A stretch of DNA of 64,000 bases, taken from assembly GCF_002906575.1 (NCBI RefSeq), contig NZ_CP026309.1, positions 930,001 to 994,000 on the forward strand. Direction: 5' to 3'. This document shows, piece after piece, positions 46,520-49,478 of this stretch (positions are counted from its first letter, which is position 1; every line of letters starts with the position of its first letter). A model generated the notes under the pieces. It saw only the letters and a list, made by a program, of their open reading frames with translations. It had not been told where the DNA came from and searched no databases. The position numbers and the translations under genes were made by a program. The stretch is from Salinigranum rubrum. GTDB taxonomy: Archaea; Halobacteriota; Halobacteria; Halobacteriales; Haloferacaceae.

Positions 46520-48097
46520 ATGTCATCCCGCATGCAGCAGGGCCAGCCGTTGTTCATTCTCGCAGAGGGCAGCCAGCGAACCCGCGGCCAGTCCGCACAG
46601 GACTCGAACATCCGTGCCGGCCGGGCGGTCGCCAGCGCCGTACGCACCACCCTCGGCCCCCGAGGGATGGACAAGATGCTCGTCGACTCCTCGGGAGAGG
46701 TCGTCATCACCAACGACGGGGCGACCATCCTCAACAAGATGGACATCGAGCACCCCGCCGCGCAGATGATCGTCGAGGTCGCCGAGACCCAAGAGGACGA
46801 GGTCGGTGACGGCACCACCACCGCGGCCGTCCTCACAGGGGAGCTCCTCGCGAAAGCCGAGAACCTCCTCGACGACGACATCCACCCGACGGTCATCGTC
46901 GAAGGGTACACCGAGGCCGCCCGCCTCGCCCAGGACGCCATCGACGCGCAGGTGCTGGACGTCGACCTCGACGACGACCTCCTCGTGAAGGTGGCCGAGT
47001 CCTCCATGACAGGTAAGGGCACCGGCGACGTCACCGCCGACGTCCTCGCCCAGCACGTCGTCCGCGCCGTCCGGATGGTTTACGACGACGCCGAGCGGTT
47101 CGACCGCGACGACATCAACGTCCACACCCGGACGGGCGCCTCCTCGTCGGCGACCGAACTCGTCGAGGGCGTCATCATCGACAAGGAGCCAGTCAACGAC
47201 GAGATGCCCCGCTCCGTCGAGGACGCGACCGTGGCAGTCGTCGACGTGAAGCTCGACGTCCGCAAGGCCGAGGCCGACACCGAGTACAACATCTCCTCGG
47301 TCGAACAGCTCACCGCGGCGCTCGACGCCGAGGAAAGCGAACTGCGGTCGTACGCCACCTCGCTGAAGGAGGCGGGCGTCGACGTCGTGTTCTGCACGAA
47401 GTCCATCTCGGACCGCGTCGCGAACTACCTCGCGAAGGAGGGTATCCTCGCGTTCAAGAGCGTCAAGAAGTCGGACGCGCGCCGCATCGCCCACGCGACG
47501 GGCGCGAAGCGCCTCGGCTCTGTCACTGACATCGACACCGACGACTTCGGCCACGCCGAGTCGGTCTCCATCGAGAAGTACGGCGAGGACGAACTCACGT
47601 TCGTCGAGGGCGGCGCGGCCTCGAAGTCGGTGACGCTCCTCCTGCGCGGCGGCACCGAGCACGTCGTCGACGAACTGGAGCGCGCCATCAACGACGCCAT
47701 CGACGTCACCATCGCCGCCATCGACAAGGGCGGTGTCGTCCCGGGCGCGGGCTGCACCGAGGTCGCCATCGCCGACCACCTCCGGTCGGAGGCGGCGGGC
47801 ATCGAAGGAAGAAAACAGCTCGCGGTCGAGGCGTTCGCGGACGCGGTCGAGGCGCTCCCGCGCACGCTCGCGGAGAACGTCGGCATGGACCCCATCGACG
47901 CACTGGTCGATCTGCGCTCGCGGTACGAGAGCGAGGGTCGCGCGGGCGTCGTCGCCACCGGCCGCTTCGGTGAGATCGGCGACCCCGTCGAGCACGGCGT
48001 CCTCGACCCCGCCGCGGTGAAGCGCGAGGCCGTCGAGTCGGCGACCGAGGCCGCGACGATGATCCTCCGCATCGACGACGTCATCGCCGCCGAGTAA
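46520..48097 (+). CDS. Thermosome subunit (group II chaperonin), Cct3-like
   Basis: A 525-aa chaperonin subunit of the double-ring, ATP-driven folding machine. Signature blocks are present: ATP-binding VRTTLGPRGMDKMLVDSSG, TNDGATILNKMDIEHPAAQM, VGDGTTTAAVLTGELL and the lid/apical region, then GGVVPGAGCTEVAIADHLR near the C terminus. The C-terminal Gly-Gly-Met-rich tail of typical thermosomes is missing: the protein ends IDDVIAAE, as in the 524-residue Cct3 type of Haloferax (from memory). A heat-shock-type promoter lies just upstream. Confidence 0.93.
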   Translation: MSSRMQQGQPLFILAEGSQRTRGQSAQDSNIRAGRAVASAVRTTLGPRGMDKMLVDSSGEVVITNDGATILNKMDIEHPAAQMIVEVAETQEDEVGDGTTTAAVLTGELLAKAENLLDDDIHPTVIVEGYTEAARLAQDAIDAQVLDVDLDDDLLVKVAESSMTGKGTGDVTADVLAQHVVRAVRMVYDDAERFDRDDINVHTRTGASSSATELVEGVIIDKEPVNDEMPRSVEDATVAVVDVKLDVRKAEADTEYNISSVEQLTAALDAEESELRSYATSLKEAGVDVVFCTKSISDRVANYLAKEGILAFKSVKKSDARRIAHATGAKRLGSVTDIDTDDFGHAESVSIEKYGEDELTFVEGGAASKSVTLLLRGGTEHVVDELERAINDAIDVTIAAIDKGGVVPGAGCTEVAIADHLRSEAAGIEGRKQLAVEAFADAVEALPRTLAENVGMDPIDALVDLRSRYESEGRAGVVATGRFGEIGDPVEHGVLDPAAVKREAVESATEAATMILRIDDVIAAE

Positions 48098-48224
48098 TCG
48101 GCTCGCTCTCGCCTTCTCTCTGGCCGATATCCGGTCGCTCTTCCGTTCCGCTGTCGAACACAGTGGCGCGAAAATAGCAGGGTGTGGTGCCGCTCACCGG
48201 CTTTTCTGCTCTTGGCTCGCTCGC

Positions 48225-48515
48225 TCAGCTTCTCGTCGCGGGCCCGACGGTCGGCGCCGTGAACGAACTCGTCACCTTGGCACAGCCTTCGATGCACGCG
48301 ACGAGCGCATCCCCCTCGAAGAGGTTGCTGCAGTGGATGACGCAGTTCTCGTAGTCGCCGACGTCCCCCGCTGCCGACGGCGCGACGAGCATCGCGTACA
48401 ACGCTCGCCCGTCGTCGAGCCCGACCTTCTTCGCGACGCTGTTCAGTTCCTCTCTCGTAACCGAAATCGTGACCTCCGCCGGTAGTTCGTCGTACGACTT
48501 GTCTTCGTCTGACAT
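48225..48515 (-). CDS. Small protein with twin CX3C motif, unknown
   Basis: A 96-aa protein that I do not recognise. The N-terminal part (DELPAEVTISVTREELNSVA) is acidic and strand/helix-like. Residues 58-78 contain Cys58, Cys62, Cys74 and Cys78 (CVIHC, eleven residues, CIEGC). The rest is Ser/Thr/Pro-rich. The spacing is that of twin CX3C helical-hairpin proteins or of a four-Cys metal site. There is no signal peptide. The start at 48515 is chosen because upstream codons lack the character of the rest. It stands alone downstream of the thermosome gene. Confidence 0.6.
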   Translation of the reverse strand: MSDEDKSYDELPAEVTISVTREELNSVAKKVGLDDGRALYAMLVAPSAAGDVGDYENCVIHCSNLFEGDALVACIEGCAKVTSSFTAPTVGPATRS

Positions 48516-48698
48516 GTGTCTCCCCGCCTTCGGGACGTCCAGAAGGCAGGAAACGTTCGTCGGCAGACGGCTTAGCTGCTCATTCGTTGTGTCGGGCACG
48601 TCGAACGGTTGAACTATTCATCGCCTTCGACGATTCTCCCCCGTCGGTACGGGGCCGCTCGCGTTCCGGTTTCCGAGTCCGCCGTCCGTCGCGTCTCC

Positions 48699-49478
48699 TC
48701 ACTCCTCGCGCTCGACGACGACTTCGTCGCCCGCCGAGAGCCCGAACGCCTCGTCGCCCCGTCCCCGGTTCACGTCACACTCGACGAACGCGTGGCTGCC
48801 GACGGTGACGAGTCGCTCGCCCTCCGCGACCGACGCGAACGACTCACCGACGGGGACCTCCTCGCCGTTCACCCGTACCCGGTCGCCGTCGTCGAGTCCA
48901 GCGAGGAACGCGCCCGGGACGTTCGTGATGGCGTTCCCGAAGTCGTCGACGACGAGCACCTCGCCACGAGCGGTCAGACCGTCGTCCGCGACGTCGGCTT
49001 CGGGGAGACGGTGGTCGACGTACTCCTCGGCGGGCGAGACGCGGTCGAGTTCCTCGATCCGGTCGGCGCCGACCTCGTGGACGGCCGCGGCGAGGGGGGC
49101 GAAGACGTCACGGCCGTGGAACGTGTTCGAGGCTGGCTCGTCGTACGCGTACGCGAAGACCTCGACGGCCTGCTCGCCAGCGAGCGCCCGCGCCGCGGGG
49201 AGAGCGACCCCGTTGTCGGGGGCGACGAGCGCGTGGTCGCCCGCGCGGACGGCGAGCGCGGCACGGTCGGTGCCGACGCCGGGGTCGACGACGAGGAGGT
49301 GCGTCGAAGGCGGAAACTCCGGGAGGACGAAGCGAGTCCAGAACGCGGCCGCGCGGACGTCCTGACGGGGGAGGTCGTGGGCGACGTCGACCAGCCGAAC
49401 CTGGGGGTCGTGCGAGAGGAGGACGCCGCGCATCGCGGCGGGGTACGGCGAACCGAAGTCCGAACTCAGCGTGATCAT
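48699..49478 (-). CDS. SAM hydroxide adenosyltransferase family protein (DUF62)
   Basis: A 259-aa enzyme that hydrolyses SAM to adenosine and methionine (relatives of the fluorinase/chlorinase). The start MITLSSDFGSPYPAAMRGVLL is canonical, with the SAM-site Asp in SSDFGS, VVDPGVGTDR (about 64) and the DNG-containing APDNGVA (about 87). VVDDFGNAITNV in the C-terminal domain is also conserved. The ATG at 49478 is preferred; a GTG at 49490 would overlap the nadM stop (GTGA). The gene is transcribed after nadM in the same direction, almost without a gap. Confidence 0.88.
   Translation of the reverse strand: MITLSSDFGSPYPAAMRGVLLSHDPQVRLVDVAHDLPRQDVRAAAFWTRFVLPEFPPSTHLLVVDPGVGTDRAALAVRAGDHALVAPDNGVALPAARALAGEQAVEVFAYAYDEPASNTFHGRDVFAPLAAAVHEVGADRIEELDRVSPAEEYVDHRLPEADVADDGLTARGEVLVVDDFGNAITNVPGAFLAGLDDGDRVRVNGEEVPVGESFASVAEGERLVTVGSHAFVECDVNRGRGDEAFGLSAGDEVVVEREE

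Follow-up and report, generated by a model that had tools for sequence, protein, structure and literature searches.

A Probable Single-Genome Orphan of Salinigranum rubrum with a Predicted Twin-CX3C Hairpin

Does a salt-loving archaeon possess a twin-CX3C helical hairpin of its own? The question is raised by a short reading frame, here called the ORF, that lies between a chaperonin gene and a gene for a SAM hydroxide adenosyltransferase-like protein (SAM_HAT) in Salinigranum rubrum. The window, meaning the whole 64-kb stretch of DNA that was analyzed, spans bases 930001-994000 of a 4.25-Mb contig. A first-pass annotation had described the ORF as a small protein of no known family, with two CX3C pairs spaced as in helical-hairpin proteins, of which the mitochondrial small Tim chaperones are the best known. 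Our analysis indicates that the ORF is probably a single-genome orphan with an interesting hairpin fold, the latter predicted by modeling. The positions of the relevant features are collected in Table 1.

Table 1. Positions in the window of the ORF, its cysteine core, and the flanking features.
Feature	Position	Strand	Basis
Orphan ORF, acidic (pI 4.27), twin CX3C, 96 aa	48225..48515	-	Translation; codon bias
Core C-x3-C-x11-C-x3-C, residues 58-78	48282..48344	-	Pattern position G000:C1:978282-978344 and translation
Segment of residues 48-88, folded alone: predicted helices 51-65 and 69-83	48252..48374	-	AlphaFold2
Thermosome/CCT chaperonin (Cpn60_TCP1), convergent with the ORF	46523..48097	+	Pfam PF00118; kept in congeners
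SAM hydroxide adenosyltransferase-like (SAM_HAT), upstream, same strand as the ORF	48699..49478	-	Pfam PF01887 and PF20257
Variable segment between the chaperonin and SAM_HAT genes	48107..48709 (approximate bounds)		blastn against congeners

Coding signal and cysteine pattern

The ORF runs from an ATG at 48515 to the end of its stop codon at 48225. An upstream GTG at 48599 offers an alternative start that would extend the product to 124 residues. We prefer the ATG because the motif GGGGAG, read by eye, lies just 5' of it, and the 96-residue form thus appears the likelier of the two from the sequence. Two stops interrupt the plus strand in the register of the ORF. A codon log-odds model, trained on nine neighboring genes with the ORF excluded, assigns +0.38 per codon to the frame of the ORF versus -1.18 to +0.02 to the other five frames. 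With the stop included, the score is 0.34, lower than that of all nine neighbors (0.49-0.83), and GC3 is 0.84 versus 0.87-0.93 in the neighbors. We conclude that the ORF is probably a real gene. Given that its codon score falls under every neighbor's, the evidence for this is good but stops short of overwhelming. A scan of the locus for sigma-70-type promoters returned no match, as expected for an archaeal host. The low pI is usual among haloarchaeal cytosolic proteins, visual inspection of the translation reveals no signal peptide, and the protein probably resides in the cytosol.

The ORF contains only four cysteines, and translation reproduces exactly the spacing that the first-pass annotation had reported, Cys58-x3-Cys62-x11-Cys74-x3-Cys78, including the 11-residue spacer. 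All four lie within the last 40 residues, and a Thr/Ser-rich tail follows them. Four cysteines in 96 residues is a high local content: the nine neighbors, which are 177-672 residues long, have 0-2 each. How readily could such a pattern arise by chance? With four cysteines distributed randomly over 96 residues, 0.12% of 400,000 trials produce a twin CX3C, and 0.016% produce one with a spacer of 11-18 residues. Because other twin patterns would also have drawn notice, the fair chance figure is 1.1%, the frequency at which a twin CXnC of whatever n up to 9 appears.

A search of four genomes for C-x3-C-x11-C-x3-C returned 52 matches, 28 of which were scored for codon usage, with 0.2 as the cut for a good score; the other 24 were unscored. 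Among the 28, the pattern lies in the best-scoring frame only in the ORF and in one further locus. In this scoring, the ORF reaches 0.17 over a 130-codon open stretch, which is below the cut and above the scores of its other frames. The further locus (L073; G001:C1:825167-825229, minus strand) belongs to a congener, where the pattern lies in a frame scoring 0.46 within a 528-codon open stretch; its sequence differs from that of the ORF.

Relatives and the surrounding locus

Searches with the ORF identified no family. Pfam and NCBIfam profiles yield none at E<=10, PADLOC likewise yields none at E<=10, PDB sequences give no match, and plasmids and phages give no match at E<=1. Two PHROG matches, each at E 0.3, are taken as chance. 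GTDB contigs and viral contigs were each scanned twice with exact 8-residue words, a method that makes only close relatives visible, and no relative was confirmed. In sensitive whole-genome searches, the ORF's own genome is the sole convincing match among 4 genus genomes and 60 relatives. The same holds for wider searches of 170 family, 392 order, and 392 phylum genomes (the sets overlap, with up to 392 genomes per search). Thus, the absence of a known family is borne out by the Pfam, NCBIfam, PADLOC, PDB, plasmid, phage, viral, and GTDB searches. Homologs lacking the cysteine pattern, or a clear match to a known family, were the findings that the annotation had named as telling against its proposal, and the homology searches revealed neither. 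Given that there are no detected homologs, the cysteines, the fold, and selection on the ORF have no evolutionary support.

Sequence comparison places the residual genome matches (E 0.003-0.1) at chance level: in the 60-relative search, 9 of the 59 non-own genomes have a match at E<=0.1, and about 6 are expected by chance. One locus in the same genome (L002; E 0.0027, 26%) has the second CX3C and lacks the first. We read it as an antisense chance match because its frame has a codon score of -0.45 versus +0.23 on the opposite strand of the same span. Another (L055; E 0.006) lies inside a different protein, which we take to be OsmC-like, and L003-L012, with E 0.02-0.52 in the genome searches, were also rejected as homologs. 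With composition statistics disabled, re-alignment of the ORF to five selected loci produced E-values of 5e-7 (L002), 5e-6 (L004), 2e-5 (L005), 3e-4 (L003), and 1.1 (L055); these are not counted because the database consisted of 16 kb of loci picked for matching.

What surrounds the ORF? Nine neighbors were scanned with Pfam. They encode an amidohydrolase (Amidohydro_2), the chaperonin, SAM_HAT, a cytidylyltransferase-like nucleotidyltransferase that is presumably NMN adenylyltransferase, Lon, a CAAX protease-like (Rce1-like) protein, and, at greater distance from the ORF, a glycosyltransferase, a methyltransferase, and a winged-helix protein. Among these nine, the Pfam assignments include none pointing to a metal or redox function. 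The SAM_HAT gene is present in 38 of 40 genomes searched. In stretches taken from 12 relatives, the chaperonin and SAM_HAT genes occur together in 7, including all three congeners, and in the other 5 the chaperonin was not found within the fetched stretch. The gap between the two genes is 332-2056 bp in the three congeners, G010, and G013, and 60 bp in G004; in G007, the genes are about 2.7 kb apart.

Alignment of the window with the three congeners by blastn breaks off near 48107 and picks up again at about 48720-48740, leaving query positions of roughly 208-810 unaligned except for chance-level matches. Because the DNA alignment breaks there, the ORF sits in about 600 bp that have no counterpart in the three congeners. 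The content of the gap varies. G003 and G013 carry an ORF of about 200 residues with G-rich membrane repeats (L043:1514-3571 and L048:3116-3803), which we assume to be UPF0126/TRIC-like, G010 carries an ORF (L046) that is presumably GNAT-like, and the gaps of G001 and G002 hold nothing convincing. By these comparisons, the gap is a variable spot that differs in every relative compared. A 57-residue ORF is present in the G001 gap (L045:3175-3508). No direct repeats suggestive of a mobile element were found at the ORF locus, and two short inverted repeat pairs there are taken as chance. Concerning remnants of the ORF, 51-85 of 100 shuffled queries align as high as the ORF to the gaps of four relatives. 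For the G001 gap, the score is 40 versus a shuffle mean of 30.6, and 4 of 100 shuffles score as high; this result is not counted because five gaps were tested, and it is the only hint, at the level of sequence alignment, of a relic in relatives.

The predicted hairpin and known twin-CX3C proteins

AlphaFold2, run on the single sequence, produces a weak model of the whole ORF (mean pLDDT 57.8, pTM 0.39). The model is best in residues 61-80, with helices predicted at 55-65 and 69-83 (pLDDT blocks at 76 and 71) and, in the N-terminal half, near 21-31 and 36-44. When the segment in Table 1 is folded alone, again from one sequence, mean pLDDT is 80, and blocks 58-67 and 68-77 reach 93 and 92. C58 and C62 fall on the first predicted helix, C74 and C78 on the second, and a short loop connects the helices.

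The first seven of 36 Foldseek matches to the segment model are VBP-8, Luffin P1 (twice), Jug r 2 (twice), the Ana o 1 leader, and nigellin-1.1, which we take to be an alpha-hairpinin; each of the seven is a plant seed peptide or a vicilin leader. The best match has E 0.59 and TM 0.75, none reaches E 0.1, and, as Foldseek also scores residues, shared cysteines may raise the matches. Re-ranking of the Foldseek matches by VIA-align places plant seed peptides and vicilin leaders at ranks 1-8, with Z 5.7 to 4.1 (best: rmsd 2.4, 41 aligned), and the Tim9/Tim10 entry 2bsk_E at rank 20 (Z 3.0, rmsd 2.9, 40 aligned); for helical models, Z below 8-13 may reflect a mere common arrangement, and small helical models often reach such values. 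VBP-8 is also the top match of the whole-ORF model (Foldseek E 2.1, VIA Z 4.9). A fold family's absence from these match lists does not count against it. Excerpts of the literature identify Luffin P1 and BWI-2c as alpha-hairpinins (PMC7191063) and ascribe alpha-hairpin structures to vicilin-buried peptides (PMC12497738). The first-pass interpretation thus fares unevenly. Its helical-hairpin layout agrees with AlphaFold2, Foldseek, and VIA-align, at no significant E-value, and its lack of a family stands. Kinship with the small Tim chaperones is unsupported: in the ORF's own genome, their profile (zf-Tim10_DDP, PF02953) misses the ORF even at E<=10, and its sole match, at E 1.54, lies elsewhere.

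How does the ORF compare with known proteins of similar layout? The plant alpha-hairpinins (Luffin P1, BWI-2c, and vicilin-buried peptides) share with it the motif CX3C-X4-20-CX3C with no interfering cysteines, have the two-helix hairpin that is predicted for the ORF, and are the best structural matches of the segment. Unlike them, the ORF is archaeal, acidic, and 96 residues long, with an extra N-terminal half and no visible signal peptide. No sequence relationship to them was detected, and the archaeal source argues against membership in this plant-defense group. The mitochondrial small Tim proteins (Tim8/9/10/12/13) have a twin CX3C on a helix-loop-helix, as predicted for the ORF, and are of similar length; to our knowledge, archaea have neither mitochondria nor a Mia40 pathway. 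The C(P)XCG zinc-finger proteins of Haloferax are likewise small haloarchaeal proteins with two cysteine pairs potentially holding one zinc, whereas the pairs of the ORF are exclusively CX3C, lie on predicted helices, and have no Pfam or NCBIfam match. Csp3/DUF326 proteins (PF03860) also have CX3C pairs on helices, which in the ORF are predicted ones. The ORF differs from them in having four cysteines only, no family match, and a chance-level alignment to the host DUF326 protein (BLASTP E 0.31; 300 of 1000 shuffles with cysteines kept score as high). Judged by sequence, the ORF is not a member of the small Tim, Csp/DUF326, or C(P)XCG families. In titles and abstract openings of literature combining alpha-hairpinins or twin CX3C/CXXXC helical hairpins with archaea or haloarchaea, we found no archaeal example.

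The host DUF326 protein is encoded elsewhere in the same genome (L089; G000:C1:2869352-2869639, minus strand) and is the only match there of the PF03860 profile, which does not match the ORF. Specifically, it is a cysteine-rich protein from a 161-residue ORF with several CX3C pairs, it scores above the family cut-off, and it resembles a copper storage protein of the cytosolic type.

A possible four-thiol switch and its alternatives

The explanation we favor, at a probability of about 0.42, is that the ORF specifies a lineage-specific cytosolic hairpin protein that employs four-cysteine thiol chemistry. The C-terminal half would form a two-helix hairpin with one CX3C on each helix. An antiparallel hairpin would bring C58 opposite C78 and C62 opposite C74. 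In the reduced state, the four thiols could hold one Zn(Cys)4 site. Under oxidative stress, two inter-helix disulfides, C58-C78 and C62-C74, would form, making the hairpin a redox switch, and the predicted helices of the N-terminal half could contact a partner. Precedents are available in excerpts of published work: the alpha-hairpinin fold pairs Cys1-Cys4 and Cys2-Cys3 (PMC7191063), reduced Tim9 and Tim10 bind zinc 1:1 with all four cysteines and are oxidized more slowly in its presence (PMC3759932), and most of the small four-cysteine haloarchaeal proteins tested bind zinc, though via C(P)XCG (PMC11241148). Given the alpha-hairpinin cysteine pairing and zinc binding by Tim9 and Tim10, a Zn(Cys)4 site convertible to two disulfides is the simplest inference. 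Counting against a thiol or zinc mechanism, helix A is not clearly amphipathic: in a helix moment test, 30% of shuffles are as high, compared with 2.5% for helix B. The absence of a metal or redox function among the scanned neighbors weighs in the same direction.

The cytosol is normally reducing, and no secretion signal is seen in the ORF. Both points argue against a constitutively disulfide-locked scaffold with no metal role, that is, an inhibitor, antimicrobial, or binding peptide resembling the plant alpha-hairpinins, and we consider such a scaffold unlikely. The ORF is also acidic; a positive charge is the usual state of antimicrobial peptides, according to an excerpt of PMC7191063. In its favor are the nearest solved structures, which are plant alpha-hairpinins at no significant E-value, and a spacing that fits the CX3C-X4-20-CX3C motif as given in part of PMC11591084. 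Alternatively, the ORF could be newly arisen or decaying, with no maintained function and a coincidental cysteine pattern. Occurrence in one genome among those searched, a locus that differs in every relative compared, a codon score of 0.34 versus 0.49-0.83 in the neighbors, and some twin CXnC in roughly 1% of random four-cysteine placements are all consistent with this idea. Frame-specific codon bias with a GC3 of 0.84, four cysteines amid cysteine-poor neighbors, and the confident local fold prediction for segment 48-88 make it doubtful.

Csp proteins have a CXXXC layout, and the predicted hairpin would equal half of one of their bundles. The notion is that the ORF could be a small Cu(I) thiolate protein, a miniature Csp with inward-facing CX3C pairs on its helices. 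According to excerpts of PMC5519932 and PMC5171941, which use the term CXXXC, Csp proteins are four-helix bundles with many cysteines directed toward the core. The missing PF03860 match, the chance-level alignment to the host DUF326 protein, the presence of only four cysteines, and the separate Csp-like protein that the genome already carries make a copper role a long shot. A RiPP precursor, with an N-terminal leader of about 50 residues and a cysteine-rich C-terminal core, fits in layout only, through cysteines confined to the last 40 residues and the Thr/Ser-rich tail behind them. With no leader family at E<=10 in Pfam or NCBIfam and no typical maturase among the nine scanned neighbors, we regard it as highly improbable.

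We return to the cytosolic four-thiol hairpin. Its boldest form, which we put forward as a speculation with the odds well against it, is that an archaeal twin-CX3C hairpin evolved independently and operates in the cytosol as a zinc-to-disulfide redox switch, with no mitochondria, Mia40 relay, or secretory pathway. Should the predicted fold and its thiol chemistry prove correct, a twin-CX3C hairpin would have originated de novo in a halophilic archaeon, and the protein would provide a compact model of how metal or disulfides control a helical hairpin when the cytosol is rich in salt. Otherwise, the ORF would join the many orphans that are confined to a single genome and occupy a variable site of the chromosome.
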